A stretch of 53,670 nucleotides of DNA from Paracoccaceae bacterium (GTDB taxonomy: Bacteria; Pseudomonadota; Alphaproteobacteria; Rhodobacterales; Rhodobacteraceae): contig JAJFIC010000010.1 of the NCBI GenBank assembly GCA_021775315.1, forward strand, positions 1 through 53,670, written 5' to 3'. This document shows positions 28,554-47,070 of this stretch, piece after piece. How positions within the stretch are numbered: position 1 is the first letter of the stretch; every line of letters starts with the position of its first letter. The translations under genes were made by a program, and so were the position numbers. Below the pieces are notes generated by a model. It did no database searches and was not told where the DNA came from. It was given only the letters and a program-made list of their open reading frames with translations.

Positions 28554-28559
28554 GCCCAA

Positions 28560-28607: not shown

Positions 28608-28643
28608 AGGTGTCGCGATTCAGGGCGTGACATCGTTGAAATC

Positions 28644-30448: not shown

Positions 30449-30459
30449 CAGAAAAATTT

Positions 30460-30489
30460 ATGTAATGATATGTTATAACGATTTTACAT
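30460..30489. promoter_or_regulatory. Candidate LysR operator between lysR and phnW
   Basis: The interval is AT-rich and holds ATGTAA (30460-30465) and TTACAT (30484-30489) as an inverted repeat, with a palindrome GTTATAAC (30472-30479) near the centre. LysR regulators bind interrupted dyads in such divergent intergenic spaces. No exact T-N11-A box can be confirmed by eye. Confidence 0.5.
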
Positions 30490-30555
30490 ATGGCTGGCCA
30501 GCCCGTTACAAATTGGCATGGCCACACACTGGCCCGCTGGGAATCGAGACTTGAT

Positions 30556-31713
30556 ATGCCGCTAAGCGCACCCAAACTGGGCGAACCTTATCTACTGACC
30601 CCGGGGCCGCTGACCACGTCCTATGCCGTGAAATCAGCGATGTTGCGGGATTGGGGGTCGTGGGATCAGGATTTTCGCGACATGACGGCAAAACTGCGGT
30701 CCATGCTGGTTGAGATCGCGGATGGTGACGATCTGGATTGCGTGCCAATTCAAGGCAGCGGCACTTTTGTGGTTGAGGCGATGCTGGGCAGTTTCGTGCC
30801 GCGCGATGGCAAAGTTCTGGTGCTGAGCAACGGGGCCTATGGCAAGCGGATCGCTGAGACGCTGGATTATCTTGGCCGCGCGAATGTTGTAATAGACAAG
30901 GGCGATTATATGCCACCGCGCGGGGACGAGGTCGCGGCGGCGTTGGCTGCTGATCCGGATATCACCGACGTTGTCGTCGTGCATTGCGAGACATCCTCGG
31001 GCATTTTGAACCCGATTGGCGAAATCTCGGATGTGACCTATGGCGCCGGGCGACGGTTGCTGATCGACAGCATGAGCAGCTTTGGCGCGATCCCTGTCGA
31101 TACCAAGTTTGAGGCTTTGGTTTCCTCTGCCAATAAATGCATCGAGGGCGTGCCGGGATTTGGGTTTGTAATTGCGTCCAAAGCCTCGCTTGCGGCCACC
31201 AAGGGGCGCAGCCATTCGCTTAGCCTCGATGTTTTTGCGCAATGGGACCATATGAACAAAACCGGACAGTGGCGGTTCACGCCCCCAACCCATGTCATTG
31301 CGGCGTTTCTGGAAGCCCTAAGGGCCCATAAATCAGAAGGCGGCGTCGCGGCGCGTGGTGCACGATACGCCAACAATCGCGACGTGGTGGTGGCGGGACT
31401 GCGCGGTCTGGGATTTGAAACCCTGCTGAAAGACCGCTGGCTGTCACCGATCATAGTAACGGTTTTCTGCCCGGAACATCCGGCGTTTTCGTTTAGTCGG
31501 TTTTACGTACTGATGGAGGAAAAGGGGTTCATCATCTATCCCGGCAAGCTGACCATTGTGGCCAGTTTCCGCATTGGTTGCATCGGGCAGATGGATGAAC
31601 ACGTCATGCATAAAGTGGTCGCTGCAACAGCCGCTGCCCTAAACGAATTGGGGGTGCCTGATGGCGCGCCACCAAAGCTGGCTTTGCTTGAAAGGGCAAA
31701 GCTGGCGGTCTGA
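30556..31713 (+). CDS. phnW: 2-Aminoethylphosphonate--pyruvate transaminase
   Basis: The 385-residue PLP enzyme moves the amino group of 2-aminoethylphosphonate to pyruvate, giving phosphonoacetaldehyde and alanine. The family start is [20 protein letters not shown], and the active region has [13 protein letters not shown], the cofactor aspartate in [13 protein letters not shown] (Asp171) and the Schiff-base lysine in [16 protein letters not shown] (Lys194). The chosen ATG gives the usual N terminus; an in-frame ATG at 30490 would overlap the putative LysR operator. It is 31 bases upstream of phnX. Confidence 0.94.
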
Positions 31714-31744
31714 ATTTCAATCTTACAAAACAAGGAAAACACCC

Positions 31745-32593
31745 ATGAGCAAATTTGGTGACTACACATACGAGCGGCAATATCGCGGCGGCGTCAAAGC
31801 GGTTGTACTTGACTGGTCCGGCACCCTTGCCGACGCTTATGTCATTGCGCCTGCCGTTGTCTTTGTCGAGGTTTTCACATCCCAAGGTGTTGAGATTTCG
31901 ATGGAAGAGGCGCGCGGCCCAATGGGATTGCGCAAGGATTTGCACATCAAAAAACTAACGGAAGATCCGGTGATTGCAGCGCGATGGGAAAGCATCAAGG
32001 GCAAGGCCCCGGATCAGACCGATGTGGATGCGATGTTCGCGGAATTCGTTCCCGCACAGCTGGCGTGCTTGCGGAAATACACAACCCTGTTGCCGGGCGT
32101 AAAAGACGTGTGTCTTGACCTGCAAAAGCAGGGCATCAAAATCGGTGCGTCAACCGGGTTCGTCCGCTCGATGGTTGATGTGTTGCTCGAGGATTGTATC
32201 AAACAGGGTTTCACCCCGGATGCGACTGTTGCAGGCGACGAGGTGATCAACGGTGCGCGCCCTAATCCGCATATGGTTTTCAAGAACCTTGATCTGCTGA
32301 ATATTTCTGACGTGAAATCCGTGGTCAAATGCGATGACACGGTGTCAGGTATCGGCGAAGCCCAGAACGCGGGTTGTTGGGGCGTTGGGTTGGTACGCTA
32401 TTCCAATTATATGAACATCAACACACTGGAAGAAGAAGCAACCCTAAGCGAGGCCGAAATGGCGCGTCGCATGGCGAAAACGCGGACCATTCTGGAACAG
32501 GCGGGTGCGCATTACGTTATCGATTCACTGGTCGATTTGCCCGCGGTGATTGACGACATCAACGCGCGTCTGGCGCGGGGTGAAAAGCCTTAA
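31745..32593 (+). CDS. phnX: Phosphonoacetaldehyde hydrolase (phosphonatase)
   Basis: The 282-residue HAD-family enzyme splits phosphonoacetaldehyde into acetaldehyde and phosphate, breaking the C-P bond. The nucleophile is Asp23 in VLDWSGTLADAY, and the Schiff-base lysine typical of PhnX is in PMGLRKDLHIKKL (Lys64). Motif III/IV is VKCDDTVSGIGEAQNAG. Length and layout are normal. It begins behind AAGGAAAAC and belongs to the phnW transcript. The released acetaldehyde and phosphate feed central metabolism. Confidence 0.94.
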   Translation: MSKFGDYTYERQYRGGVKAVVLDWSGTLADAYVIAPAVVFVEVFTSQGVEISMEEARGPMGLRKDLHIKKLTEDPVIAARWESIKGKAPDQTDVDAMFAEFVPAQLACLRKYTTLLPGVKDVCLDLQKQGIKIGASTGFVRSMVDVLLEDCIKQGFTPDATVAGDEVINGARPNPHMVFKNLDLLNISDVKSVVKCDDTVSGIGEAQNAGCWGVGLVRYSNYMNINTLEEEATLSEAEMARRMAKTRTILEQAGAHYVIDSLVDLPAVIDDINARLARGEKP

Positions 32594-32604
32594 GAACATG
32601 ACCC

Positions 32605-32639
32605 AAACAGCCGCCCTGCGCGATTGCAGGGCGGTTTGT
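32605..32639 (+). terminator. Terminator-like hairpin after phnX
   Basis: CCGCCCTGC (32611-32619) and GCAGGGCGG (32626-32634) pair perfectly around a 6-base loop. AAAC on the left and TTTGT on the right extend the stem. The T tract is short and broken by G, so it may be inefficient. Confidence 0.6.
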
Positions 32640-32743
32640 CTGCGGGTTGGCAGAGACAGTTCCAACCTTAGATTATGCAACCCGTCGCAATGTGTATTTG
32701 CGGCGGGTAAAAATCATAGGCGCAACATTATTGATTTGACCCA

Positions 32744-33580
32744 ATGAGTGTCACAACCTTCGCAATCGTACTAAGTGCTGCAATCCTGCACGCGTCTTGG
32801 AATGCGATGCTGAAGGCCACGACCGACAAGACCGCCATGCTCGGCATGATTTCTTTTGGCCATGTTCTGACGGGTGGGGTGCTTGCCTGTTTTGTGCCGG
32901 TGCCGGACGTGGCAAGTTGGCCATATCTGGCTGGTTCGACCCTTATTCATTTTGCCTATTACTATTTGCTGGGCCGGTCGTATCGTTTGGGAGATCTTAG
33001 TCAGGTTTATCCAATTGCGCGCGGCATAGTTCCGGTTCTGGTGGCGCTTGGCGCTCAGATAACCGTGGGTGAAGCGTTACCGCTGGCGACCTGGATTGGT
33101 GTGTTGATTGTGTCGGCTGGTGTGATGTTGTTGTCGGCCGGATCATTGCTGGCGCGCAGTTCACCCGGTGTTGTTTCCATAGCGATTGTAACTGGCCTTT
33201 TCATTGCTGCCTATTCGGTGGTGGATGGCTTGGGTGTACGGCAGGCCCATGCCGCGCTGGGGTATATCGCATGGTTGTTTGTGCTGGAAATTTTTGTCGT
33301 GCTGTTTGTGATCTGGTTGCGCCACAAACAGTTGAGGCAAATGCCGCGTAAAACTTTGATGCTAGGGGTGGCTGGAGGTTTGGTCTCGGCTCTGGCTTAT
33401 GGTCTGGTGATTTATGCCAAAGAATTTTCACCACTTGGTGTGGTGTCAGCTTTGCGCGAAACCTCGGTGCTTTTTGCCTCGTTGATCGGCGTTGTTTTAC
33501 TGGGTGAACGCCCTTGGCGCAATCGTCTGGGTGCGGCGACGATTGTTGTGGTTGGCGTGGTTGTCATCGCGCTGACCTGA
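32744..33580 (+). CDS. DMT-superfamily (EamA) transporter
   Basis: The 278-residue protein has ten predicted helices in two EamA repeats. It starts FAIVLSAAILHASWNAMLKAT, and the segment YYYLLGRSYRLGDLSQVYPIARG is typical of the EamA group sometimes called phosphonate utilisation associated putative membrane protein. That name fits its place directly after phnX. The substrate is not known. The gene is separated from phnX by a hairpin and 150 bases. Confidence 0.88.
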   Translation: MSVTTFAIVLSAAILHASWNAMLKATTDKTAMLGMISFGHVLTGGVLACFVPVPDVASWPYLAGSTLIHFAYYYLLGRSYRLGDLSQVYPIARGIVPVLVALGAQITVGEALPLATWIGVLIVSAGVMLLSAGSLLARSSPGVVSIAIVTGLFIAAYSVVDGLGVRQAHAALGYIAWLFVLEIFVVLFVIWLRHKQLRQMPRKTLMLGVAGGLVSALAYGLVIYAKEFSPLGVVSALRETSVLFASLIGVVLLGERPWRNRLGAATIVVVGVVVIALT

Positions 33581-33838
33581 AACAATCCCAAGCCGAATAA
33601 AGTTGACAGGCCGCACCCACGGCGTCAGTGTTTTTGTAATCTCAAAATTTTGTCCAAATGGATGGAATCTGCCGACGTAGGCCAATGCTTCCCTTGGGAG
33701 GGGGCGAGAAGTGGTGCTGTGGGCCCTGTTGTTCATGGCGAAGCCTGCGAAAACAAAAACGCCCAAGAATAGTGTTTTATAAGTTCAAAAATATAGGGGC
33801 GTAGTCCCAACAATGAATCCAAAACAGTGAGGAATAAG

Positions 33839-35878
33839 ATGAAACAAATACTTCTTTCAGGGGTCGCGCTATTGGCGCTGTCCGGGACGGCCTTTGCGGC
33901 CTGTCCGGCAGTGACTGTTGCCGATCCGATGGGTATTGCTGCGGGGTCTTTTCCGCAACAATATGAGCTAGGCGAATTTGAATCGCTGGCCAGTTGTAAA
34001 CTGGAATTCTCGGCAAACCCGGCAGCTGCCGAGATGAATGCCAGAATCCGGGGCAATGGTGATCTGCCATCCCTGACCGACCGCTTGCCGACCGAGCCGC
34101 TGGTCGTCGCACCTTACGCGTCCATTGGCCACTATGGCGGAACGTTTGACGCGCTTTCAAATGCGACAGAGGCAGGCACATCCGACTTTATGTCGGTGCG
34201 CCACGTCAATCTTGTGCGCTTTTCCGACGATCTAAAGACGATCGTACCGAATGTTGCAAAAAGCTGGTCCTGGAATGACGACTTTACCCAACTGACATTT
34301 GTTCTGCGTGCGGGCCACAAGTGGTCGGACGGGGCACCTTTTGGCGCCGAAGATGTCGAGTTCTGGTATGAAAACCTGCAAATGGACACCAACGTTATGG
34401 AGGTTCCAAAAGGCTGGTTGCTGGCTGGCGGCGAGCCGATGACAGTTGATGTTATCGATCCGCTAACCGTGCGTTTCAACATGCCGTCGCCAAAACTGGG
34501 CTATCTCGCGCATTTTGCAAACCACTATGGCCAGGGCTTCCAGCCCAAGCATTTCCTTGGGCAATATCATCCGGACATTAACCCGGACGCCGACGCATTG
34601 GCGCAATCGCTCGGGTTTGAAAATGGCTATGATCTGATCAAAGCTTACTATGGCAGTTCCGACTGGATGGACACGCCGACACCCATGTTGGCAAAACCCG
34701 ATTTGGTTGCAGGCCTGCCGCTTGATGCAGCACCCACGTTGGAAAGCCATATCGTGATCGCTGAGAACACCGAGGGCCGGCATTTCGTCGCCAACCCTTA
34801 CTATTTCATGGTAGATACTGCGGGTCAGCAGCTTCCATACATCAACGAGATGGACGAGATATTTGTTGGTGAAAGCGAAGTGCGTTTGATCAAGCTTATC
34901 AACGGCGAAGTCGACTACAAAGCGCAAGCGTTGCAGACCGATTATGTGCCTCTACTGTTGGAAAATCAGGAAAAGGGCGGTTTTCTGATCGACCTGAAGC
35001 CTGATATCACGATGCCAACCTTTGCATTCAACGTCACCTCTGAGGACCCTGAAAAGCGCAAAGTATTTGGTGATCTGAAATTCCGTCAGGCGATGTCTGT
35101 CGCGATGAACCGCGATGAGATAAACGAAGTTGCGATGTTCGGACTGGGAACACCTCAACAATACGTTGGGTTCTCGCCTTCTCCTGATTTCATCACAGCT
35201 GAATGGGAACAGCATTTCGCGCAGTATGATCCTGCACTGGCAATGTCCCTGCTGGACGAAATCGGCGTTGTTGATAAAGACGGAGACGGGATGCGCGAAT
35301 TGCCAAATGGCGACAAGCTGATCCTGAACCTTCAGGTTGCCACACAAGGTATGTCGATCAAAATCGTCGAGCTTGTCGGGCAAACCTGGCGCGATGTTGG
35401 CATCAACAATACGGTCAAAGAGGTCACAACCGACGAGTATCGTTCGGCCCAATCCTCAAACCAACTTGATGTCACAATGTACGAGAAAAGCGTGCCTTTG
35501 ACGACGGTTCTGGGCAATCCAGAGATTTTCATCCCGCCGTTTGATAACTACTTCAACATGCGTACAGCGATGTTGTGGGGCGAATACGTTGAGTCCGACG
35601 GCGCCGCAGGTGTAAAACCACCAGCGTATGTTTACACCATGATGGACGACATCAACGCCTTCCAAGCAACGCCGGTTGGTACAGCCGAATCCGATGCTTT
35701 GGGCTTGAAACTGGTTGCGAACATGACCGGAAACCTGTTGTTCATCGGCACGGTTAAAGAGCAAAAGCCAATTTATCACTCGGCATCGCTCAAGAACTTC
35801 CCGACGTTCAATACCGCATCCTACGCGTATTACCGGACATATCCTTACCGCCCGTCGCAGTGGTTCTTTGACGAATAA
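33839..35878 (+). CDS. ABC transporter substrate-binding protein, family 5 (Opp/Dpp type)
   Basis: The 679-residue periplasmic protein has a signal peptide (MKQILLSGVALLALSGTAFAAC) and the family 5 core. The hallmark is GTPQQYVGFSPSP and the LLDEIGVVDKDGDGMREL region near residue 480. At about 680 residues it is longer than the usual 500-550, with extra sequence at both ends. It would capture an oligopeptide-sized or ester-like substrate and hand it to the permeases downstream. The ligand is not predictable; the location among phosphonate genes suggests a phosphonate conjugate. The start is chosen for the signal peptide. Confidence 0.88.
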   Translation: MKQILLSGVALLALSGTAFAACPAVTVADPMGIAAGSFPQQYELGEFESLASCKLEFSANPAAAEMNARIRGNGDLPSLTDRLPTEPLVVAPYASIGHYGGTFDALSNATEAGTSDFMSVRHVNLVRFSDDLKTIVPNVAKSWSWNDDFTQLTFVLRAGHKWSDGAPFGAEDVEFWYENLQMDTNVMEVPKGWLLAGGEPMTVDVIDPLTVRFNMPSPKLGYLAHFANHYGQGFQPKHFLGQYHPDINPDADALAQSLGFENGYDLIKAYYGSSDWMDTPTPMLAKPDLVAGLPLDAAPTLESHIVIAENTEGRHFVANPYYFMVDTAGQQLPYINEMDEIFVGESEVRLIKLINGEVDYKAQALQTDYVPLLLENQEKGGFLIDLKPDITMPTFAFNVTSEDPEKRKVFGDLKFRQAMSVAMNRDEINEVAMFGLGTPQQYVGFSPSPDFITAEWEQHFAQYDPALAMSLLDEIGVVDKDGDGMRELPNGDKLILNLQVATQGMSIKIVELVGQTWRDVGINNTVKEVTTDEYRSAQSSNQLDVTMYEKSVPLTTVLGNPEIFIPPFDNYFNMRTAMLWGEYVESDGAAGVKPPAYVYTMMDDINAFQATPVGTAESDALGLKLVANMTGNLLFIGTVKEQKPIYHSASLKNFPTFNTASYAYYRTYPYRPSQWFFDE

Positions 35879-35904
35879 GGCTCACTACGGCCAAATGTGA
35901 TCCC

Positions 35905-35936
35905 GTTGCGGGCCGGTTTACTGGCCCGCAACTTTT
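35905..35936 (+). promoter_or_regulatory. Intercistronic hairpin between the binding protein and permease genes
   Basis: GTTGCGGGCC (35905-35914) and GGCCCGCAAC (35923-35932) form a perfect 10-bp stem with an 8-base loop, followed by TTTT. It starts 27 bases after the binding-protein stop and ends 54 before the first permease. Such a structure lets most transcripts stop or be protected here, giving more binding protein than permease. Confidence 0.82.
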
Positions 35937-35989
35937 AACAAAAGGCGAACCATAATGGCTCGCATCTTGCTCTTGGGGCGCCATTATCA

Positions 35990-36994
35990 ATGATCCAGTT
36001 TCTTAGATTTGCGCTGGTCCGCGCCGCCCTCGCATTCTTCACCCTATGTTTCGTTTCTTTCATCGTGTTTTCGCTGATGGAACTCGTGCCCGGCGACTGC
36101 GCCGAGCGCTACCTCGCGTTTAAAAACTCGCAAGGCGCGATGATTTCCGTCGCTGATATCCAGGCGGAACGTGTGCGCCTCGGGCTGGACAAACCTTATC
36201 TTCAGCGATGGGGAACGTGGATTATTAACGCTTTTCAAGGGAAATTCGGCGAAAGCTGCATCCTGCGCCTTGATATCAGCCAATTACTTGGGCAAAAAAT
36301 CTGGCTGAGCGTCGGATTGTGTCTGGCATCCCTTGCGGTTGCGTATGCAATCGCGATACCGGTCGGAATTATTGCCGCAACCTCTAAGAACCCGTATCTG
36401 AACAACAGCCTGCGGCTTGTCAGCTATTTGGGACTGGCCCTGCCGAACTTCTTGCTGGCGCTGATGATCATGCTGTTTTCCACCGTTGTTTTTGGCGATA
36501 GCCTGACCGGGTTGTTCTCCAAGGAGTTCCGCGACGCACCCTGGTCTGGTGCGCGTGTATGGGATTTCCTGTCGCATGCGTGGCTGCCCGTTTTCATTCT
36601 TGGCTGGTCAGCCACAGCCTTTGCCATTCAGACAGTGCGCGCGCTGATGTCTGATGAGATCGGAAAGCTATATGTCACCGCCGCCGCCGCCCGTGGTGTG
36701 TCGGGGCGTAGATTGCTGATGCGATATCCGGCGCGACATGCGCTGACCCCAATCATCAACTCGCTGGGCTTTGATCTTAACCGGATTTTCAACGAACTGC
36801 CGATTGTGGCGCTGATCCTGACACTGACCGAAGCCGGGTCATTGTTGATCGAGGCATTGGCGCGCTCTAACGATCAGCAACTGGCCGGTGCGATTATCTT
36901 TTTCTTAACTGCAAGCATCGTGGGCATTAATTTTCTGACCGACATGATACTGGCGCTGACGGACCCACGTGTTCGCCACAGCATTATGGGATAA
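35990..36994 (+). CDS. ABC transporter permease (DppB/OppB type)
   Basis: The 334-residue inner-membrane permease has six to seven helices and the BPD_transp_1 domain. The N-terminal helix is ALVRAALAFFTLCFVSFIVFSLM, and the EAA loop in VTAAAARGVSGRRLLMRYPARHA contacts the ATPase. The layout is standard for OppB/DppB, with a periplasmic part containing ERYLAFKNSQGAMIS. The stop is 5 bases before the next permease. Confidence 0.93.
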   Translation: MIQFLRFALVRAALAFFTLCFVSFIVFSLMELVPGDCAERYLAFKNSQGAMISVADIQAERVRLGLDKPYLQRWGTWIINAFQGKFGESCILRLDISQLLGQKIWLSVGLCLASLAVAYAIAIPVGIIAATSKNPYLNNSLRLVSYLGLALPNFLLALMIMLFSTVVFGDSLTGLFSKEFRDAPWSGARVWDFLSHAWLPVFILGWSATAFAIQTVRALMSDEIGKLYVTAAAARGVSGRRLLMRYPARHALTPIINSLGFDLNRIFNELPIVALILTLTEAGSLLIEALARSNDQQLAGAIIFFLTASIVGINFLTDMILALTDPRVRHSIMG

Positions 36995-36999
36995 CGGAT

Positions 37000-38145
37000 A
37001 TGACCGATACAACAAATGCTAACGTGCCGCATGTAGATCAGAAAGCCAAGGATGCCTATTTTACGGCGTCCCAAGGACAGCTGATCTGGACACGGTTCAA
37101 GAAGCAAAAGGCGGCAATGGTCGGGGCGTGGGTTCTGATTATCCTGATCATTTCCGGGATATTCGCGCCATTCCTGACACCTTATGATCCAACGATTGCG
37201 GGCCGCGATAAAACCTATCAAAATGGTGCGCCGCAGATGCCGCAGTTTTGCGACGATAACGGCTGCTCTGCCCGGCCCTTCATTTACACGTACGAGCGGC
37301 AACGCTCGATCAAAACCAACTTTCGTTGGGTGACCACCATTGATACTGACAAACGGCGCTATTTGCAGTTTTTCGTTAAGGGTTCAGAATATTCGATTTT
37401 CGGGATCAGCGGTTCAACCCATTTGTTCGGCGTTGATAGCGGTCAAATCCATATATTTGGAACGGATTCAACCGGCAAGGATATCCTGTCGCGCACCTTG
37501 CATGCGATCAACACGTCGATGGCTGTTGGCACGATCGGGGTTTTTATCGCCTTTGTGCTGGCGCTGATTATTGGCGGAATATCGGGGTATTACGGCGGTT
37601 GGCTCGATTCATTTCTGCAAATGATAACGGACGCCGTGCGAACGGTGCCCGCCATTCCGCTATTCATGGCACTGGCGGCGTTTATCCCGGATACCTGGAG
37701 CGCCGAGGAAAGGTTCTTTTTCATCTCAATCATCCTTGGGTTTATCGGCTGGCCGACGCTGGCGCGACGTGTGCGCACCCATTTGTTGACCGAAAGAAAT
37801 CAGGAATATGTGTTGGCAGCCAAGCTATGCGGAGCCTCGCCAAGCCACATTATTCGCAAGCATTTGCTGCCGAGTTTCACCAGTTACATCATTGTCGATC
37901 TGGTTATTTCGTTTCCGTATATGGTGCTGTCAGAAACCGCGCTTAGCTTTATCGGCCTTGGATTGAAAGACCCGGTAAATTCACTGGGTGTCATGTTGCA
38001 AAACGTGACCAGTGCGGATGTTTTGCTGAACTACCAATGGTACTTTATCCCGGTGATTTTCTTTATCGTGTTGGTGATGGCTTTTGTTTTTGTGGGTGAC
38101 GGATTGCGGGATGCTGCTGATCCCTATGGGGATACCAAGAAATGA
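37000..38145 (+). CDS. ABC transporter permease (DppC/OppC type) with enlarged periplasmic insertion
   Basis: The 381-residue permease has the OppC layout: an N-terminal helix (AAMVGAWVLIILIISGIFAPF), then a large periplasmic insertion of roughly 100 residues (about 65-165), and a C-terminal BPD_transp_1 domain with the EAA loop EYVLAAKLCGASPSHIIRKH. The insertion contains CDDNGCSARPF and GSEYSIFGISGSTHLFGVDSG, with a likely disulfide pair. Related permeases of 300 residues lack this. The insertion may help dock the long binding protein. The stop overlaps the ATPase start (ATGA). Confidence 0.9.
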   Translation: MTDTTNANVPHVDQKAKDAYFTASQGQLIWTRFKKQKAAMVGAWVLIILIISGIFAPFLTPYDPTIAGRDKTYQNGAPQMPQFCDDNGCSARPFIYTYERQRSIKTNFRWVTTIDTDKRRYLQFFVKGSEYSIFGISGSTHLFGVDSGQIHIFGTDSTGKDILSRTLHAINTSMAVGTIGVFIAFVLALIIGGISGYYGGWLDSFLQMITDAVRTVPAIPLFMALAAFIPDTWSAEERFFFISIILGFIGWPTLARRVRTHLLTERNQEYVLAAKLCGASPSHIIRKHLLPSFTSYIIVDLVISFPYMVLSETALSFIGLGLKDPVNSLGVMLQNVTSADVLLNYQWYFIPVIFFIVLVMAFVFVGDGLRDAADPYGDTKK

Positions 38146-39137
38146 CGCGCCTGCTTGATGTTGAAAACCTGACCTTACAATTTGACACCGACGAAGGCCG
38201 GATAACAGCCGTTGAAAACGTGTCTTTCGACCTTGAAGCTGGCGAAGTGATGGGCCTTGTGGGCGAAAGTGGATCGGGAAAATCGGTGACCGCCAAAGCC
38301 TTGATGAAACTGAACCCCGGCAACGCACATTACGGTGAAAACACCAAGATCGACCTGCATCTGGAAGACGGATCAGTTGATATCATGTCGCTTAAGACGA
38401 ACAAGGAAATGGAAATTGTGCGCGGCTGCGCCATTTCGATGATTTTTCAGGAACCAATGGCCAGTTTTGCGCCGGCGATCACCATTGGTGATCAAATGGT
38501 CGAACAATTGCTGATCCACACCGATTTGAACAAAAAGCAGGCCCGCGATCTGTCTATTGAAATGCTTGACAGGGTCGGGATTTCTGACGCCGCCCACCGG
38601 TTCAAGCAATTCGCGTTCGAGCTGTCTGGCGGTATGCGCCAACGCGCGATGATCTCGATGGCTTTGTCCACCAGCCCCAAACAGCTGATTGCGGACGAGC
38701 CGACCACCGCACTTGATGTGACCATACAGGCCCAGGTGATTGATCTGATGAAGGATCTTGTGGCCGAATTTGGCATGGGCATCATCTTTATCACCCATGA
38801 TCTGGGTGTTGTGGCGCAAACCTGCGACAAGGTCGCCGTGATGTATCTGGGCCGCCTGATCGAACAGGGTCCGGTCCGCGAGGTGATACGAAACCCAAAG
38901 CACCCCTATACCAAGGGGCTTTTGGATGCGCTGCCCAGATTGGATGATCTGGATGCGCCCCTGATCCCGGTGCCGGGCGATATACCCTCGCCTTTGGAAC
39001 GGCCTGCCGGGTGCGTGTTCAACAATCGCTGCGCGGTCGCCATTGAAGGACGATGCACCGTTGAGGTTCCGAAATTCACCCAAGTGGACGCAACGCATTC
39101 GGTTGCCTGCCATTTTGCTGCGGAGGCTTTGAAATGA
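38142..39137 (+). CDS. ABC transporter ATP-binding protein (DppD/OppD type)
   Basis: The 331-residue ATPase has the Walker A GLVGESGSGKSVTAKAL, the ABC signature ELSGGMRQRAMISMAL, Walker B LIADEPTTALDVT and the H-loop ITHDLGVVAQ. The C-terminal oligopeptide/dipeptide extension has GCVFNNRCAVAIEGRC, the cysteine-rich motif that coordinates an Fe-S cluster in this family. It pairs with the following ATPase as a heterodimer on the permeases. Confidence 0.95.
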   Translation: MTRLLDVENLTLQFDTDEGRITAVENVSFDLEAGEVMGLVGESGSGKSVTAKALMKLNPGNAHYGENTKIDLHLEDGSVDIMSLKTNKEMEIVRGCAISMIFQEPMASFAPAITIGDQMVEQLLIHTDLNKKQARDLSIEMLDRVGISDAAHRFKQFAFELSGGMRQRAMISMALSTSPKQLIADEPTTALDVTIQAQVIDLMKDLVAEFGMGIIFITHDLGVVAQTCDKVAVMYLGRLIEQGPVREVIRNPKHPYTKGLLDALPRLDDLDAPLIPVPGDIPSPLERPAGCVFNNRCAVAIEGRCTVEVPKFTQVDATHSVACHFAAEALK

Positions 39138-40135
39138 GTGACAAGCCCCTGATCTCGGCCCGTGATTTGTCGGTGCATTATCCGCTGCGTGGCGGGATAA
39201 TCGGCCCGAAACCGGTCGTTCGTGCTGTGGAAACCGTCAACGTTGATATCGCCGCTGGCAGCTTTTTCGGGCTGGTCGGTGAAAGCGGCTCTGGCAAAAC
39301 CACCTTTGGTCGGGCTTTGCTGCGGGCCGCACCGATTACCAATGGCCATGTGCAATATAACGACGACGAGGTTGAATATGACCTTGCCACAGTCGACAAA
39401 AACCAGCTCAAGGATTATCGCAAGCGCGCCCAGCTGATTTTTCAGGATCCTTATGCGGCCCTAAGTCCGCGAATGACGGTGCGTGACATTATCGCCGAAC
39501 CGTTACAGGTCATGGGTCTGACCAAATCGCGCGAAGAAACCGACGAGCGTGTGCGCGAAATCGCCGCCAAATGCCGCCTGAATGTGGAACATCTGCGCCG
39601 TTTCCCACATGCGTTTTCCGGTGGTCAGCGGCAACGGATTTCAATCGCAAGGGCGTTGGTTTCACGACCAAAGTTTGTGGTGGCTGACGAAAGTGTGGCC
39701 GCACTTGATGTTTCTATTCAGGCCGACGTGCTGAACCTGCTGAAGTCCATCCAGCTGGAAATGGGCCTGACCTTTTTGTTCATCAGCCACGATTTAAGCG
39801 TGGTTGCGCATATCTGTGATCATGTGGCGGTGATGTATCTGGGGCGGTTGGTGGAAACAGCACCAACCCGCGAATTGTTTGCATCCCCCAAACACCCTTA
39901 CACCAAGGCATTGCTATCGGCGATCCCGTCGCTTGACCCTGATGACCGGGGCAAAGTGCAAAAGCTGGAGGGTGAGATTCCGTCGCCAACCAACCCACCG
40001 CCGGGATGCAAATTCCAGACCCGGTGCCCGATGGCGCAGGATCATTGCCGCAAGGTTGAACCGAAACTCGAAAACGCCGGTGGCGAGCATGAGGTCGCCT
40101 GCCATCGCTGGCGTGAACTTTTGGAAACTACCTGA
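39134..40135 (+). CDS. ABC transporter ATP-binding protein (DppF/OppF type)
   Basis: The 333-residue ATPase has Walker A GLVGESGSGKTTFGRAL, the signature FSGGQRQRISIARAL, Walker B VVADESVAALDVS and an H-loop FISHDLSVVAH. It ends with GCKFQTRCPMAQDHC, the oligopeptide/dipeptide extension with cysteines. In Walker B the usual EPTS-type continuation reads DESVAALD, common for OppF. It starts in the stop of the DppD gene (ATGA), completing the five-gene ABC operon. Confidence 0.95.
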   Translation: MSDKPLISARDLSVHYPLRGGIIGPKPVVRAVETVNVDIAAGSFFGLVGESGSGKTTFGRALLRAAPITNGHVQYNDDEVEYDLATVDKNQLKDYRKRAQLIFQDPYAALSPRMTVRDIIAEPLQVMGLTKSREETDERVREIAAKCRLNVEHLRRFPHAFSGGQRQRISIARALVSRPKFVVADESVAALDVSIQADVLNLLKSIQLEMGLTFLFISHDLSVVAHICDHVAVMYLGRLVETAPTRELFASPKHPYTKALLSAIPSLDPDDRGKVQKLEGEIPSPTNPPPGCKFQTRCPMAQDHCRKVEPKLENAGGEHEVACHRWRELLETT

Positions 40136-40144
40136 TTAGTCGGT

Positions 40145-40165
40145 GGGCAAAGCGATGGCTTGCCC
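40145..40165. terminator. Small hairpin between convergent genes
   Basis: GGGCAA and TTGCCC with an inner GC/GC pair form a stem of eight pairs with one bulged A, between the ABC operon and the sulfatase-family gene. No T tract follows on either strand, so any terminator role is weak. Confidence 0.3.
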
Positions 40166-40170
40166 GGGTT

Positions 40171-41646
40171 TCAGACGGAAACAGCCAATGATCTGTCCAA
40201 ATGCTGCATCCGGTGGCTGAGAAGTGCGCGCGTCATATGCAGCAAATCGGTGGCATAATCGGGATGGGCGGCCAGATTGACCTGCTCTTGCGGGTCATTT
40301 TCCAGATCGAACAACAACGGCGCGAAGCCTTGATTGAAATGCACCAGCTTAAGCTTCTTGCTGCGCAGAATTGCAAGATTGGCCTGTTGCGGCCGCAGGC
40401 CTGCTTGGGCCAAAAGATCAGAACCGGCTGCAGTGAAATCAAGCTCAAGATGCACATGTTCGCGCCAGTCCTTTGGCGTTTCACCCGTTAGGAAAGGCTG
40501 CAAAGATTGGCCGCTCATTACCGCAGGCGTGGCAAGTTCAAGCCAGTCAAGCAGGGTCGGGGCCACGTCGATCGACTCCGTCAGGTGGTTGATCTTTGTG
40601 CCATGTTGCGCCGGATGGTTGGGGTCACGGATCAGCAAAGAAATGTGATAAGCCGGATCAAACACATGCTGCTTGGCCCACAAACCGTGATCACCCAGCA
40701 TCTCGCCGTGATCAGCGGTAATGATTATCAGCGTGTCGTCATATTGTCCGGTTTCGCGCAAAAAGGCTATGACGCGCCCGATATGATGATCGACCTCAGT
40801 CGCCAGCCCCAGATATATTGCGCGCAACGCCTGTGTGTCGTCTTCGTCAACTGAACGGCATCCGGTAACGGTTTTCTGGATGGGTTGAAGATGGCCGGAA
40901 ATGGCGCTGAAAGGATGCGGATCACCGGGTTTTGAAGGCGGCGGCAAATCGGCAGGGCGATACATTTTATTGTAAGGCGCCGGGGCGACAAATGGCGGGT
41001 GCGGTCGGATATAGGTCAGATGGGCGAACCAGTTTTGATCGGTGCGCACGGCGAGTTCTTCCAGCAACCGGTCGGTCAGAAACGCGGTGTCACTATGTTC
41101 GGCCGCATAAAAGGCCGGATCATCCGGGCGCGCAGGTTCGCCAGCCACGGATGGCACCGGGTTATAGAAATCCGCGAAGGCCGGAATGTCGTAACCCTTG
41201 GCTTTCAGGTATGCGCGCCAGGGATAACTATCCTCGAACCGCATTTCTGTTATCTCGCGAAATCCATCCATAACCTGTTCAACCGAAGCAAGATCCGGGT
41301 CATTTTCATGCCGTGCTGTGGGATCAATCGTCGTGTCGGTATAGCCAAACAACAAAGGCTCGAACCCGGCTTTGCGCGCCTCAAGCGCGATATTTGGTGT
41401 GCCTTGTTTTAGCGGCGTGCCGTTGCTGACAGAGCGGTGGTTCATCGCATATTGCCCGGTCAACAAACTGGCGCGGGCCGGGCCGCAGGGATTGGTGACG
41501 GTGAAATGGTTCAGAAACGAAACGCTGTCGTCTTGCAATGCCTTTAGGTTTGGCAAATCGACATGATCCGCCAGCGCGCCGTTCAGGCAATCGGCGCGCA
41601 ATTGGTCAATCACCACGAAAAGAACTTTTTTGCTGTTTTCGGTCAT
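40171..41646 (-). CDS. Sulfatase-family hydrolase, phosphonate monoester hydrolase-like
   Basis: The 491-residue alkaline phosphatase superfamily protein has VLFVVIDQLRADCLNG with metal-binding Asp14, and the formylglycine motif TNPCGPARASLLTG with Cys54 and Arg58. IIITADHGEMLGDHGLW supplies the second metal-site residues. It has no signal peptide, which is unusual for arylsulfatases but normal for cytoplasmic phosphonate monoester hydrolases, whose formylglycine lies at a similar position. In this locus it could release a free phosphonate or alcohol from an imported ester. Arylsulfatase or phosphodiesterase activity is also possible. The ATG at 41646 is preferred over an in-frame start at 41733. 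Confidence 0.78.
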   Translation of the reverse strand: MTENSKKVLFVVIDQLRADCLNGALADHVDLPNLKALQDDSVSFLNHFTVTNPCGPARASLLTGQYAMNHRSVSNGTPLKQGTPNIALEARKAGFEPLLFGYTDTTIDPTARHENDPDLASVEQVMDGFREITEMRFEDSYPWRAYLKAKGYDIPAFADFYNPVPSVAGEPARPDDPAFYAAEHSDTAFLTDRLLEELAVRTDQNWFAHLTYIRPHPPFVAPAPYNKMYRPADLPPPSKPGDPHPFSAISGHLQPIQKTVTGCRSVDEDDTQALRAIYLGLATEVDHHIGRVIAFLRETGQYDDTLIIITADHGEMLGDHGLWAKQHVFDPAYHISLLIRDPNHPAQHGTKINHLTESIDVAPTLLDWLELATPAVMSGQSLQPFLTGETPKDWREHVHLELDFTAAGSDLLAQAGLRPQQANLAILRSKKLKLVHFNQGFAPLLFDLENDPQEQVNLAAHPDYATDLLHMTRALLSHRMQHLDRSLAVSV

Positions 41647-41903
41647 CTGCGATTCCCTTTCCGCAGCTAAGGCAGGCGATACTCTGGCCACAATCCCAGC
41701 CTTTGTGAAGCGGTTTCTTAGCCGGACGAGCAATTGGTTTTCGGTCGAGATCCCTTGGAAAATCCGTGGAAACCCGCGATCAGGTCAGGTGATTTCGGCC
41801 TTTGCCTGCTTGAGGTTTTCGCACTCAGCGGCTATAGACACACGGTTCAACGGCAGCACGCGAACAACTGGCAATCAGGCAACCCATTAACCGCGGACCG
41901 ATA

Positions 41904-43586
41904 ATGTCAACCATTGCATTTTTGATAAACCTTGCCGGCGCGACCATGTTGTTGTTGTTTGCGGTGCGCATGGTGCAGACCGGGATCGAGCGATCAATGG
42001 GTCCGTCATTTCGCCGTGTCGTGACCCAGCGCAAGGACAGTCGTGTTCAAACCGCAATGGCCGGTATAGTGCTGGCCATTGTTTTGCAAAGCGCGACGGC
42101 GGTGGCGTTGCTTGCCTCGGGATTTGCAGCGTCAGGGATATTAACCTTTGCCGGGGGATTGTCGCTGGTTTTGGGGGCCGATCTTGGCTCGGCCCTTGTC
42201 ATTCAGATACTTTCCTTCAAGCTCGACTGGCTGATACCTTTGCTTTTGGCCGTTGGTGGTTGGTTGTTCCTGAAACTTGAACGGCGTCGTGCCAAACAGT
42301 TTGGACGTATCTTTCTGGGCATCGCGTTTATCCTGCTGGCCTTGCGTCTGGTTGGAACCGCGATGGAGCCGATCCGTGACAGTGGGTTTCTGCCCTTGAT
42401 CGCGAATTATTTGAAAACTGATTTTCTGACGGCCTTTCTGGTGGGCGCGGCGGTCACGTTTGTTATGCATTCAAGCGTGGCGGCGATCCTGATGGTGGTT
42501 ACTTTTACCGCCCTTGGGGTGTTGCCTTTTGTGGCGGGTGTGTCCCTTGTTTTAGGTTCAAATCTTGGCAGTGCTTGTCTGGCGGTGTGGCTGACGCGCG
42601 GCATGCCCGTGGCCTCAAGGCGTATTCCGATCGGCAATCTGCTGTTGCGTGGGACAGGCGCGTTGCTGGCACTGCCACTGGTTAACCTGACGCCGGTTTT
42701 GGCCGTTTTTGACACCTTTGACGCGGGGCAGGCATTGGTGGCGGTGCATCTGACATTCAATGCAGCCCTTGTGTTATTGGCGGTGCCAGTCGTGGGGTTG
42801 CTAGACGCACCGATCATGTTGTTGCTGCCAGACAAAGGCGACGCTGAAACGCCTCAGGATCCGCTGGCGCCAGTGTCTGTGCTGGCTTGGAACGTGCTGG
42901 ATGACCCAAAGCAGGCCCTTGGCAGTGTCACTCGCGAAGTCTTGCGGATGAACCAGATTGTCGAGGTGATGACCCGCCCGATTATGGAGCTTTACGCATC
43001 CGGCGATTTGCGAAAAATCAGCGAAGTTCGGGCGTTGAACGAAGGGGTGAAAACCGCATCGACCGACATCCGCCGGTATGTGGCCAGTCTGGATCACGAG
43101 CAAATGCGCAAACCGGAAAACCGCCGCGCCAGAGAGCTGACAGAATACGCGATAAACCTTGAAACAGCAGGTGACATCGTCGCCCGACGTCTGTTGCCGC
43201 TGGCCAAGGAAAAAGCTCGTGATAAACTGGAATTTTCGCGCGATGGCTGGAATGAACTTGTGGCAATCCACGAGCGTGTGATCGCCAATATGAACCTAGC
43301 CTTCAACGCTTTGGTCTATGAAGACATCGAATATGCCCGGCTTTTGGTGGCGGAAAAGACTGAAATGGCGGCACGGGAACGCGGCAGCCGAAAAAAACAT
43401 CTCAAACGGTTGCGCGACGGGGTGGAAAGCAGTTTTGAATCAAGCGACGTGCATCTTGAAACTTTGCGCGGGCTAAAGGCCCTCAACTCTCAAATCGCGG
43501 CAGTGGCATATCCGATCCTTTACAAAAATGGCCAGCTTCTTGAAACCCGTTTGGTTGAAACCATCGAGGACGACGACAGCGATTGA
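41904..43586 (+). CDS. Na/Pi cotransporter family protein with PhoU-like C terminus
   Basis: The 560-residue protein has the Na/Pi-cotransport II repeats: GATMLLLFAVRMVQTGIERS, LQSATAVALLASGFAASGIL and the second repeat MHSSVAAILMVVTFTALGV, with QS-type motifs in each half. The last 200 residues form a helical PhoU-like domain (VTREVLRMNQIVEVMTRPI to GLKALNSQIAAVAYPIL). Such proteins may carry phosphate either way. Its place beside genes that release phosphate from phosphonates fits phosphate export or uptake. Confidence 0.9.
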   Translation: MSTIAFLINLAGATMLLLFAVRMVQTGIERSMGPSFRRVVTQRKDSRVQTAMAGIVLAIVLQSATAVALLASGFAASGILTFAGGLSLVLGADLGSALVIQILSFKLDWLIPLLLAVGGWLFLKLERRRAKQFGRIFLGIAFILLALRLVGTAMEPIRDSGFLPLIANYLKTDFLTAFLVGAAVTFVMHSSVAAILMVVTFTALGVLPFVAGVSLVLGSNLGSACLAVWLTRGMPVASRRIPIGNLLLRGTGALLALPLVNLTPVLAVFDTFDAGQALVAVHLTFNAALVLLAVPVVGLLDAPIMLLLPDKGDAETPQDPLAPVSVLAWNVLDDPKQALGSVTREVLRMNQIVEVMTRPIMELYASGDLRKISEVRALNEGVKTASTDIRRYVASLDHEQMRKPENRRARELTEYAINLETAGDIVARRLLPLAKEKARDKLEFSRDGWNELVAIHERVIANMNLAFNALVYEDIEYARLLVAEKTEMAARERGSRKKHLKRLRDGVESSFESSDVHLETLRGLKALNSQIAAVAYPILYKNGQLLETRLVETIEDDDSD

Positions 43587-43712
43587 TAACCTTGCCGAAA
43601 CCGGCAAATTTGGCAATTGCGCGCAACAGGGTTTCAACCCTATGATCCGCTTGGACGGATGGATCACACCTGAAAAATCTGCCAATTCCGATGACGAAAA
43701 AAGGATCACCTG

Positions 43713-45077
43713 ATGCCTGGAAACCTGAGCTTTGATGCGCTGAAAACCAAGGTTGAGGCGGGTGAAATTGATACCGTTCTGGCCTGTCTTGTGGATATGC
43801 AGGGGCGCCTGATGGGCAAGCGGTTTCAGGCTCAGTTCTTTGTTCAGTCAGCTTGGAAAGAAACCCATAGCTGCAATTACCTGCTGGCCACGGATCTTGA
43901 GATGGAAACCGTTGACGGCTACGCCTCGACCTCGTGGAAGGCCGGGTATGGCGATTACACGATGAAGCCCGACATGACTTCGCTGCGGCTGGTGCCATGG
44001 CTTGAAGGAACAGCGCTGGTTCTGTGTGACGTGCTGGATCACGCCACACACCAAGACGTGCCACATTCGCCACGTGCGGTGCTCAAGCGCCAAATTGCAC
44101 GGCTAGAGGCCCTTGGTCTGGTGCCGATGATGGCGACCGAGCTTGAGTTCTTTTTGTTTCGCGAAAGCTTTGATGAAATCCGTGACGGCGGTTATCGCGG
44201 AATGTCGCCGATCAGCGCCTATAATGAAGATTACCACATTTTCCAGACCACCAAGGAAGAGGGCGTCATGCGCGCCATTCGCAACGGTCTTTATGCGGCT
44301 GGCATTCCGGTTGAAAATTCCAAGGGCGAAGCGGATGCCGGTCAGGAAGAAATTAACGTGCATTATTCAGACGCGCTGGATACGGCAGACAATCACGTGG
44401 TCACCAAAAACGCCTGCAAGGAAATTGCCTGGCAAAAAGGGCGCGCCATAACCTTTCTGGCCAAATGGGATACCAATGCAGCGGGGTCTTCCAGCCATGT
44501 TCACATGTCGCTTTGGCGCGATGGCGACCCGGCGTTTTATGATCCCGAAGGCCAATACGGAATGTCAGAACTGATGCGCCAGTATATGGCCGGGCTGTTG
44601 GCACATGCCTCGGAAATAACGTGGTTTCTGGCGCCTTATGTGAATTCTTATAAGCGGTTTGCAGAGGGTACATTTGCCCCGACAACGGCGATCTGGTCTA
44701 AAGACAACCGCACGGCGGGCTATCGGGTTTGCGGCGATGGAACCAAGGCCGTGCGCATGGAATGCCGGGTTGGTGGGTCTGACCTGAACCCCTATTTGGC
44801 GATGGCGGCACTGATTGCGGCAGGCCTTGATGGGATCGAGCGCAAGTTAGAACTGGAGCCTGAATTTGCCGGGGATGCCTATCAGGCCCAAAACGAGCGT
44901 TCCGTTCCACGAAACCTGCGTACCGCGACCGAGGCGATGCGTGGCTCTGATATGCTGCGCACGGCTTTTGGCAATGACGTGGTGGACCACTATGTGCGCG
45001 CCGCGGAATGGGAACAACAGGATTTTGACCGCAAAGTCACCGATTACGAAGTCGCGCGGGGGTTTGAGCGCGCCTAA
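43713..45077 (+). CDS. Glutamine synthetase-family gamma-glutamyl ligase
   Basis: The 454-residue protein has the GS fold. The catalytic domain contains MMATELEFFLF (metal ligands), DAGQEEINVHYSDAL, GSSSHVHMSLW and the ATP-site region YKRFAEGTFAPTTAIWS. It resembles GlnT/PuuA-type ligases rather than the dodecameric GlnA: the start is LVDMQGRLMGKRFQAQFFV and the adenylylation Tyr loop of GlnA is not visible. Such enzymes ligate glutamate to amines (putrescine, ethanolamine, methylamine, isopropylamine). It precedes an iron-type alcohol dehydrogenase. The amine partner is not known. Confidence 0.85.
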   Translation: MPGNLSFDALKTKVEAGEIDTVLACLVDMQGRLMGKRFQAQFFVQSAWKETHSCNYLLATDLEMETVDGYASTSWKAGYGDYTMKPDMTSLRLVPWLEGTALVLCDVLDHATHQDVPHSPRAVLKRQIARLEALGLVPMMATELEFFLFRESFDEIRDGGYRGMSPISAYNEDYHIFQTTKEEGVMRAIRNGLYAAGIPVENSKGEADAGQEEINVHYSDALDTADNHVVTKNACKEIAWQKGRAITFLAKWDTNAAGSSSHVHMSLWRDGDPAFYDPEGQYGMSELMRQYMAGLLAHASEITWFLAPYVNSYKRFAEGTFAPTTAIWSKDNRTAGYRVCGDGTKAVRMECRVGGSDLNPYLAMAALIAAGLDGIERKLELEPEFAGDAYQAQNERSVPRNLRTATEAMRGSDMLRTAFGNDVVDHYVRAAEWEQQDFDRKVTDYEVARGFERA

Positions 45078-45166
45078 ACCCAGCTACGGCCCAACTGGCC
45101 GCAAACCGTTGGGTGTTTCGCGCGGGGCACAAGCGCAAGCGTTAATGTTATTGAAGGAAGTCACAC

Positions 45167-46312
45167 ATGAACCTTGTCGGCAATTGGTCCTACCCAACCG
45201 CAATAAAATTTGGTGCCGGGCGCATCAGGGAAATCGCGGCCGCCTGTGAACAGGCTGGTATCAAGAACCCGTTGCTGGTGACCGACAAGGGACTGGCTGG
45301 TTTGCCAATCACGGGTGCAACGCTCGATTTATTGGCCGCGGCTGGTCTGGGTCGGGCGATGTTTTCCGAGGTTGATCCGAACCCAAATGAGCAGAACCTG
45401 ACGGCTGGCGTTGCGGCTTATCAGGCGGGCGGTCACGATGGTGTGGTTGCGTTTGGCGGCGGCTCGGGCCTTGATCTGGGCAAGATGATTGCCTTTATGG
45501 CCGGTCAGACCCGCCCGGTCTGGGATTTTGAGGACGTCGGCGATTGGTGGACGCGCGCCAATGCCGATGTGATTGCGCCGATTATTGCTGTGCCAACAAC
45601 CGCTGGCACCGGTTCAGAAGTTGGCCGCGCAAGCGTCATCACCGACAGCGAAACGCACGTCAAAAAGATCATATTCCACCCCAAAGTGTTGCCGTCAGTG
45701 GTGATTTGCGACCCGGAACTGACGATTGGCATGCCAAAAATAATCACTGTCGGCACCGGCATGGATGCGTTCGCCCATTGTCTCGAGGCGTTTTCTTCGC
45801 CGCATTACCACCCGATGAGCCAGGGAATTGCGCTTGAAGGCATGCGTCTGGTCAAAGAATACCTGCCGCACGCCGTAGCCGACGGCGAGGATATAGAGGC
45901 CCGCGCGCATATGATGTCGGCGGCAATGATGGGCGCGACCGCGTTTCAAAAAGGTCTGGGGGCGGTGCATGCGCTAAGCCATCCAATCGGTGCGGTCTAT
46001 AACACCCATCACGGCATGACCAATGCGGTGGTGATCCCGCCTTGTCTGGAACTGAACCGCCCGATGATCGAGGGAAAGATTGGCGAAGCCGCCGAGTATC
46101 TGGGCATATCGGGCGGATTTGACGGGTTTTTCGACTATGTTCTGCAACTGCGATCTGATCTCGGCGTGCCGGACAAATTGCGTGCCTTGGGTGTCGGTGA
46201 CAACCGCATTGGCGAGCTGACAGCGATGGCGTTAAACGATCCAAGTTGCGGCGGGAACCCGGTTGAACTGACCTCAGAAAACGTCAGCGAATTGTTCCGG
46301 GCCTGTATTTAG
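45167..46312 (+). CDS. Iron-type alcohol dehydrogenase
   Basis: The 381-residue protein has the Fe-ADH family N-terminal Rossmann region (VVAFGGGSGLDLGKMIAFM), the conserved AVPTTAGTGSEVGRASVIT, and the metal ligands in GMDAFAHCLEAFSSPHYHPM and GAVHALSHPIGAVYNTHHGMTNAV. The metal-binding Asp and three His are present. It is 89 bases after the glutamine-synthetase-like gene and presumably acts next in the same pathway, oxidising an alcohol group. The alcohol is unknown. Confidence 0.9.
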   Translation: MNLVGNWSYPTAIKFGAGRIREIAAACEQAGIKNPLLVTDKGLAGLPITGATLDLLAAAGLGRAMFSEVDPNPNEQNLTAGVAAYQAGGHDGVVAFGGGSGLDLGKMIAFMAGQTRPVWDFEDVGDWWTRANADVIAPIIAVPTTAGTGSEVGRASVITDSETHVKKIIFHPKVLPSVVICDPELTIGMPKIITVGTGMDAFAHCLEAFSSPHYHPMSQGIALEGMRLVKEYLPHAVADGEDIEARAHMMSAAMMGATAFQKGLGAVHALSHPIGAVYNTHHGMTNAVVIPPCLELNRPMIEGKIGEAAEYLGISGGFDGFFDYVLQLRSDLGVPDKLRALGVGDNRIGELTAMALNDPSCGGNPVELTSENVSELFRACI

Positions 46313-47042: not shown

Positions 47043-47070
47043 CGGCAGGCGATTGCGAAGCAATCTGCCG
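47043..47070. repeat. Short palindromic element inside OrfB
   Basis: GATTGC-gaa-GCAATC (47051-47065) with outer arms CGGCA and TGCCG (47043-47047 and 47066-47070) forms a hairpin. It separates the CL and SISGAR residues of OrfB, which are almost adjacent in intact transposases, and shifts the frame. That makes it an inserted piece of about 44 bp rather than native sequence. Confidence 0.6.

Follow-up and report, generated by a model that had tools for sequence, protein, structure and literature searches.

Gene content of the locus

The window analysed here is the whole stretch of 53,670 nucleotides (G000:C101:1-53670; contig JAJFIC010000010.1), a single stretch of the 3.69-Mb genome of a Paracoccaceae bacterium. 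It carries genes for the degradation of 2-aminoethylphosphonate (AEP) beside an Opp-type ABC importer and a hydrolase of the phosphonate monoester hydrolase (PMH) type. The gene phnW (30490–31713, plus strand) encodes a 2-AEP:pyruvate transaminase, which exceeds the cut-offs of the NCBIfam equivalog models NF010006, TIGR02326 and TIGR03301 (bits/cut-off 533/296, 455/401 and 447/361). It is followed by phnX for phosphonoacetaldehyde hydrolase (31745–32593, plus strand; TIGR01422, 293 bits, cut-off 220); the open reading frame (ORF) of phnX opens at 31661, and the ATG at 31745 is the likelier start. A gene for a LysR-type regulator (29549–30448, minus strand) is divergent from phnW, and an EamA-type transporter gene (32744–33580, plus strand) lies after phnX. 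For both, a phosphonate-associated model is the best match, yet it stays below its cut-off (TIGR03339 phn_lysR, 295 of 341 bits; the phn_DUF6-type model TIGR03340, 151 of 288 bits).

The Opp operon downstream is complete. Its first gene encodes a substrate-binding protein (SBP) of 683 amino acids (33827–35878, plus strand; SBP_bac_5, PF00496), which has a Sec-type signal sequence by eye, and is followed on the same strand by an OppB-type permease (35990–36994; BPD_transp_1), an OppC-type permease (37000–38145; BPD_transp_1 and OppC_N) and the OppD- and OppF-type ATPases (38142–39137 and 39134–40135), which both consist of an ABC_tran domain and an oligo_HPY C-terminus. The hydrolase, a member of the sulfatase superfamily, is encoded on the minus strand (40171–41646), and three further genes on the plus strand specify a Na/Pi-cotransporter family protein with a PhoU domain (41904–43586; PF02690 and PF01895), a glutamine synthetase (GS)-like enzyme, which is probably a gamma-glutamyl ligase of the ethanolamine gamma-glutamylase (ETAGA) type (43713–45077; PDB 5dm3, 709 bits), and an Fe-dependent alcohol dehydrogenase (ADH), which is probably of the gamma-glutamylethanolamide dehydrogenase (GETADH) type (45167–46312; PF00465). 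An original prediction, which was made from the sequence of this stretch, had listed all of these genes, and each was found with an open reading frame where it had been placed. The span of 30449–46312 proposed for the locus holds this gene content except for the LysR gene, which was thought to lie inside and sits just 5' of its start. Consensus scans returned 15 promoter-like and 30 terminator-like sequences against 11.3 and 23.1 expected, which is within about 1.4 standard deviations of shuffled sequence, and therefore no promoter is claimed.

The hydrolase

The best PDB match of the hydrolase is 4upk, titled 'phosphonate monoester hydrolase' (549 bits), and the protein carries the formylglycine motif CGPAR. 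Translation likely starts with MTENSKK at 41646 rather than at the ORF opening at 41733; from this start no signal peptide is visible by eye, and the N-termini of relatives look similar. According to the excerpts of PMC5488252 used here, the position of T107 in RlPMH is occupied by His in arylsulfatases and by either Asp (D-PMH) or Thr (T-PMH) in PMHs, which are further characterized by a Tyr in place of LysA, a Gln in place of AspB and a conserved AsnB. These positions were inspected in an alignment of 48 rows (the window and 47 sequences from related loci, including the same-genome duplicates L024/L058 and L025/L059), with the window columns set by the alignment and by RlPMH numbering. The diagnostic Asp, Tyr and Asn are present in 48 of 48 rows and the Gln in 47 (one gap), and within the CxPxR motif the Cys is found in 47 (one gap) and Pro and Arg in all 48. 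The other metal-binding, His and Lys positions, which were assigned after the RlPMH structure, are conserved in 47 or 48 rows. The CxPxR motif and the Gln/Tyr/Asn/Asp pattern are common to the window's enzyme and the PMHs with the PDB entries 2vqr (RlPMH), 2w8s, 4uph and 4upk. By its residue pattern, the hydrolase is thus a D-PMH and is predicted to hydrolyse phosphonate monoesters and phosphodiesters; it reaches 457 of the 900 bits required by the NCBIfam PehA model. PMHs of the RlPMH type are known by their in vitro activity, with no natural substrate named in the consulted parts of the sources (PMC5488252 among them), and the gene context suggests one here. In one metagenome contig, the PMH gene next to an Opp operon has an in-frame stop near its start.

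Conserved linkage of importer, hydrolase and PhnW

The distribution of the genes was surveyed in 147 genomes of relatives, using a limit of E ≤ 1e-100 for SBP orthologues and of at least 300 bits for PMH, which was chosen post hoc in the gap that separates 315 from 249 bits. The SBP occurs in 22 genomes (the window's genome counted), PMH in 34 and PhnW in 39. PMH is present in 20 of the 22 genomes with the SBP versus 14 of the 125 without it (Fisher 1e-13), and PhnW in 18 of 22 versus 21 of 125 (Fisher 4e-9), although both values are too strong because the genomes compared share kinship. Within 15 kb of the SBP, PMH is found in 14 and PhnW in 13 of the 22 genomes, and some of the remaining SBPs end at contig edges; the same distance around the best-scoring 150 control SBP_bac_5 rows among the matches listed contains no PMH and a single PhnW. 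The grouping of Opp, PMH and PhnW is more than chance. For this trio, the objection that the genes might not co-occur, which the original prediction had raised against itself, therefore falls, and its claim that an Opp-type importer and a cytoplasmic hydrolase are tied to AEP use is supported by the genome and locus context, which links the two with one another as well as with the breakdown of AEP.

A second collection comprised 79 loci, 38 of which extend 8 kb on each side (full-flank loci). Genes were counted from tblastn maps, and a clustering of longest ORFs was set aside, with antisense ORFs appearing in some loci. PMH is present in 32 of the full-flank loci, followed by EamA (16), an inositol-monophosphatase-type protein (IMPase; 11), DeoR (9), Na/Pi and GS (8 each), ADH and PhnW (7 each), and PhnA and PhnY (6 each). 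The partner of PhnW is either PhnX or PhnA together with PhnY, whose identities rest on one representative each that exceeds the NCBIfam cut-offs. PMH is a steadier partner of the importer than PhnW (32 versus 7 of 38 loci). The loci extend to Gammaproteobacteria, SAR324 and Deltaproteobacteria, with metagenome-assembled genomes in every case. SBPs with 47–50% identity (four genomes) keep the same partners; the gene order is SBP-OppBCDF-PhnW-PhnX-PMH in L040, L042 and L144 and PhnW-PhnX-PMH-SBP-OppBCDF in L041. In a tree of the SBPs (FastTree, 89 rows; L118, with 80% identity over a part and PhnW present, was left out as too short), the labels change at least 9 times for PhnW and 10 times for PMH, so the partners are frequently gained or lost. 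A divergent M81 metallopeptidase (MlrC-like), RpiR and an FAD oxidoreductase recur 5' of the SBP (e.g., L047, L048, L050, L053, L055 and L082), and MlrC adjoins the Opp operon in 11 of the 38 full-flank loci.

Replacement of AepX-type importers

An AepX-type SBP (TIGR03261) exceeds its cut-off in 18 of the 147 genomes. Among the 39 genomes with phnW, AepX above this cut-off is found in none of the 13 in which Opp lies beside phnW versus 15 of the remaining 26 (p = 3.6e-4), and TIGR03261 finds nothing at E 1e-30 in the window's own genome. The ten genomes of the window's genus show the same exchange: Opp and PMH are jointly present in seven genomes, in which AepX never exceeds its cut-off (0/7) and PhnW always lies within 15 kb of the SBP (7/7), and jointly absent in three. 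Two of these three (G003 and G006) have the order LysR-NaPi-PhnW-PhnA-PhnY-EamA-AepX-ABC, and the third (G004, 77% complete) lacks Opp, PMH, PhnW and AepX at these limits. A further AepX locus, L150, has the order LysR-PhnW-PhnX-AepX, and the placement of the LysR gene in the window is matched in L146, L147 and L150. Opp thus replaces AepXVW where PMH appears, as would be expected if an ester rather than free AEP is imported; PMH arrives together with Opp and therefore fits the prediction of an ester ligand.

EamA is also found in the AepX operons L146 to L149 and the Na/Pi-PhoU gene in L146, L147 and L149. Because both sit in AepX operons without Opp or PMH, they are general AEP-operon genes: they do belong to an amino-phosphonate set, as had been assumed, but are not specific to the Opp/PMH module. 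For the same reason the gene set is more than one unit; the grouping had been read as a single locus, and the co-occurrence counts confirm that it is non-random without making it one module.

The inspection of 14 genomes with PMH and without the Opp SBP, in two of which the stretch was short or one-sided, revealed PhnW no more than 9 kb from PMH in one case (L126, which has AepX) and no more than 30 kb away in three. In L127, from a genome with Opp at another place, PMH is flanked by an AepX operon on one side and by LysR-PhnW-PhnA-PhnY on the other. An ABC binding protein of PotD- or PhnS-like type is encoded near PMH in L133, L134 and L145, and in the remaining Opp-free loci PMH stands beside other genes. 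The link between PMH and AEP is real, but not universal. The idea that PMH always accompanies an importer was dropped, as the ABC neighbours in L132 and L135 are MlaE lipid permeases and other loci have no such neighbour. A genome of a distant family without the Opp SBP (L130, G129:C2) contains a further AEP-ethanolamine neighbourhood, in which about 2 kb separate an AepX-phnW operon from an ADH and an aldehyde dehydrogenase (ALDH) that are 56–57% identical to the ethanolamine-type enzymes.

The substrate-binding protein

The SBP belongs to PF00496 and not to the PF13343/TIGR03261 type of the known AEP importers, and it is nearly twice as long as the AepX-type protein of L127 (683 versus 371 amino acids). 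An AlphaFold2 model was obtained with a pLDDT of 79.4 and a pTM of 0.77, in which the segments 1–23, 113–119, 277–283 and 557–576 are poorly predicted. The first fold match is SPH1118 (7veu, with galacturonate; TM 0.78), and later matches include MelB with raffinose (6epy) and chito-oligosaccharide proteins, interspersed with peptide- and nickel-binding proteins. According to the excerpted account in PMC9314435, Arg57 and Arg438 of SPH1118 contact pectin and, together with Trp594, are called particularly important. A pectin-type ligand, considered because of the similarity to SPH1118, is not supported, since these residues correspond to Met, Gln and Tyr in the window's SBP (alignment by eye). 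The modelled fold is compatible with a conjugate bigger than free AEP; it does not identify the ligand.

A probable ethanolamine branch

The original prediction had assigned the ligase and the dehydrogenase to an amino alcohol. In the part of PMC10132767 that describes Phaeobacter MED193, the genes follow in the order EtoX, ethanolamine gamma-glutamylase, gamma-glutamylacetaldehydeamide dehydrogenase (GAADDH) and gamma-glutamylethanolamide dehydrogenase; this pathway is itself predicted, with proteomic data and the binding of ethanolamine by EtoX. The window's two proteins were compared with those of related loci rather than with the MED193 sequences. The GS-like ligase is 67% identical to the GS of L060 and 66–87% identical to those of related loci including L047–L060, L072, L116 and L153, and the dehydrogenase is 72–82% identical to the ADHs of the GS-ALDH-ADH cassettes of L054, L060 and L153 and 69–86% identical across related loci. 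Upstream of the GS-ALDH-ADH set, L054, L055 and L060 encode a TRAP binding protein, and the L060 protein, the only one of them that was compared, scores 588 bits against 4uab/4xf5. 4uab is Csal_0678 with bound ethanolamine, according to excerpts of PMC12410723 and PMC4646407. By these similarities, the ligase and the dehydrogenase seem to fit the ethanolamine gamma-glutamyl pathway.

The aldehyde dehydrogenase that usually lies between GS and ADH is absent from the window. Directly after the Fe-dependent dehydrogenase gene, an ORF with an insertion sequence-type integrase core (rve; 46546–47082, minus strand) is found, and the ethanolamine cassette may be cut or rearranged here. Matches to the SBP occur in two of 72,556 plasmid records. 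The plasmid of Ruegeria conchae carries PMH (783 bits to 4upk), DeoR, an inositol monophosphatase, an N-formylglutamate amidohydrolase, GS, ALDH, Fe-ADH, EamA, DeoR, the SBP and OppBCDF, with no phnW in the stretch shown, and a plasmid of a sea-cucumber gut isolate has SBP-OppBCDF-PhnW-PhnX-PMH. The window combines both arms, PhnW/PhnX and GS/ADH. GS and ADH accompany Opp and PMH mostly where phnW is not nearby, and among the loci mapped, PhnW joins them just in the window and in a single further genome (L024/L058, where GS alone is present and the contig ends). The context supports the predicted assignment to an amino alcohol, which is probably ethanolamine.

Proposed pathway and alternative explanations

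On this evidence, the locus rather more likely than otherwise serves to scavenge aminoethyl phospho- and phosphono-diesters. The SBP and OppBCDF would import a small conjugate in which AEP is bound as an ester to glycerol or a sugar, and probably also a phosphoethanolamine diester as its phosphate twin. The cytoplasmic D-PMH, with formylglycine as the nucleophile, would then hydrolyse the P-O-C ester. The AEP thereby freed would be converted by PhnW to phosphonoacetaldehyde and by PhnX to acetaldehyde and phosphate, whereas the ethanolamine of the phosphate twin would be converted by the GS-like ligase to gamma-glutamylethanolamide, which would pass to the Fe-dependent dehydrogenase. Surplus phosphate may go to the Na/Pi-PhoU protein, and LysR presumably senses a compound of the AEP pathway. 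The original prediction derived both AEP and the amino alcohol from one substrate; two isosteric substrates are the likelier source. Its core, consisting of Opp import, cytoplasmic ester cleavage and transfer of the AEP to PhnW and PhnX, draws good support from the genomic context and is moderately favoured. A wider role of Opp and PMH as a general route of entry for zwitterionic aminoethyl headgroups on glycerol or glycans, in their phosphonate and phosphate forms, which would be the natural role of the D-PMH, is put forward more tentatively and falls somewhat short of an even chance.

Several observations weigh against the diester-scavenging pathway, besides the relatedness behind the Fisher values. 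PMH is absent from 6 of the 38 full-flank loci. No PhnW match is found in 21 of 47 checked importer-bearing genomes of unstated completeness (26 have it); PhnJ is present in 14 of the 47 and is lacking, too, in 13 of the 21 without PhnW, and it has no match in the window's own genome. In the clade of the window's SBP (21 rows), PhnW is encoded in the locus for the window alone. Because of these PhnW-free genomes, the turnover of the PhnW label and the composition of this clade, AEP esters are unlikely to be the sole cargo. Among the relatives of the SBP, no close one with a phosphorus ligand is named, and 5ipw, titled oligopeptide-binding protein OppA, ranks third among the solved relatives and follows SPH1118 in the fold matches. 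The own genome has one weak match to a formylglycine-generating enzyme (PF03781, 29.7 bits, cut-off 23.3), which has no NCBIfam match. It also has no EtoX match at E 1e-20 and no close GAADDH, the best ALDH showing about 32% identity, so the ethanolamine branch is incomplete here.

The frequent absence of PhnW and the mostly phnW-less SBP clade would be explained if the importer and PMH served phosphate diesters only, such as glycerophosphoethanolamine or phosphoethanolamine-sugars, with phnWX as a neighbour of convenience, and the Ruegeria conchae plasmid, on which PMH, a phosphatase, the ethanolamine-type set and Opp stand without phnW in the stretch shown, points in the same direction. This is nevertheless unlikely, as PhnW with PhnX or PhnAY recurs beside Opp and PMH in distant clades, including those with 47–50% identical SBPs and other gene orders, and is enriched genome-wide as well. 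Alternatively, Opp could be another importer of free AEP in place of AepXVW, and PMH an accessory with a separate job; the mutual exclusion of AepX and an Opp system beside phnW, which occupy the same place in like operons, agrees with this. However, Opp follows PMH more closely than PhnW and goes jointly with it in all ten genomes of the genus, G040, G045 and G088 keep an AepX-phnW operon with Opp on a separate contig, and the SBP has nearly twice the length of an AepX-type protein and mainly oligosaccharide-binding proteins at the top of its fold matches, which makes a free-AEP importer quite unlikely. A standard oligopeptide importer and a standard sulfatase that lie beside an AEP operon by chance would agree with the general annotations that SBP_bac_5/OppBCDF and sulfatase-domain families carry and with the title of 5ipw, but given the control SBPs and the Asp in place of the arylsulfatase His in every aligned hydrolase, such a coincidence is highly improbable.

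Neighbouring genes

Just upstream of the locus, an FAD-dependent enzyme of the amine-oxidase type and a second EamA protein are encoded (27237–29552, plus strand). Homologs of the FAD enzyme (60–62% identity) are found near OppF in L051, L052 and L057, and L031 has one at its edge; the enzyme may therefore belong to the same metabolism. Near these two genes lies one for a pyridoxal phosphate-dependent decarboxylase (24874–26319, minus strand), whose best NCBIfam match is of the diaminobutyrate type, far below the cut-off. A secreted-looking protein (26353–27048, minus strand) contains two stretches of the LCCL domain, which is known mostly from eukaryotes. At the other end of the window, a cluster of small ORFs (51453–53504, minus strand), one nucleotidyltransferase-like and one ADP-ribosyltransferase-like by eye, is possibly a small mobile islet.

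Relation to known systems and significance

The systems AepXVW, PhnSTUV, PhnCDE, AepSTU and AepP together with phnWX or phnWAY likewise combine importer genes with those for LysR, PhnW and PhnX or PhnAY in one AEP operon, and AepX operons have the EamA and Na/Pi neighbours in common with the window. These importers are described for free phosphonates, and AepX and AepS carry pfam13343 (PMC10574752 and PMC8316502, both in excerpt), whereas the window has an SBP_bac_5 protein, the five-gene Opp architecture and a linked PMH. A precedent for the uptake of an intact diester is the Agrobacterium system AccA-AccF-AccG: AccA takes up agrocinopine, a sugar phosphodiester, and AccF cleaves it inside the cell (PMC4526662, in excerpt). 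A putative phosphatase follows in that system, and some of the loci studied here contain IMPase and DeoR. AccF is not known to be a member of the sulfatase superfamily, and no agrocinopine-binding molecule appears by name among the 55 PDB sequences listed for the window's SBP. The MED193 operon EtoVWX-ETAGA-GAADDH-GETADH, like L060, has ligase, ALDH and ADH in this order next to a TRAP protein for ethanolamine, whereas the window keeps only the ligase and the alcohol dehydrogenase, and uptake would be that of a diester via Opp.

The excerpted literature provides candidate sources for such conjugates: in marine invertebrates, glycans and glycolipids bear AEP (PMC6994554), phosphonates form part of lipids and glycans (PMC9381506), and the alkylphosphonates of marine dissolved organic matter are polysaccharide esters (PMC5649143). 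Among the closest precedents, a Sulfitobacter PMH ('PEH') was suggested to cleave phosphonate esters in this dissolved organic matter (PMC5649143), and the import of intact lipid headgroups is left open in the part of PMC10132767 concerned. No description of an Opp-type importer with ties to PMH and AEP was found in the open-licence literature searched, which does not establish its absence from print. The parts are known; their combination and the uptake route that it implies did not turn up in this search. If the proposed pathway is true, D-PMH enzymes would gain a physiological role, and the SBP would provide an uptake marker that is overlooked by surveys for aepX and phnD. The cycling of AEP and ethanolamine would be linked in the same bacteria. 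With the wider role of Opp and PMH, marine bacteria could mine phosphono- and phosphoglycans and lipids for bound AEP that the known importers of free AEP would leave behind.

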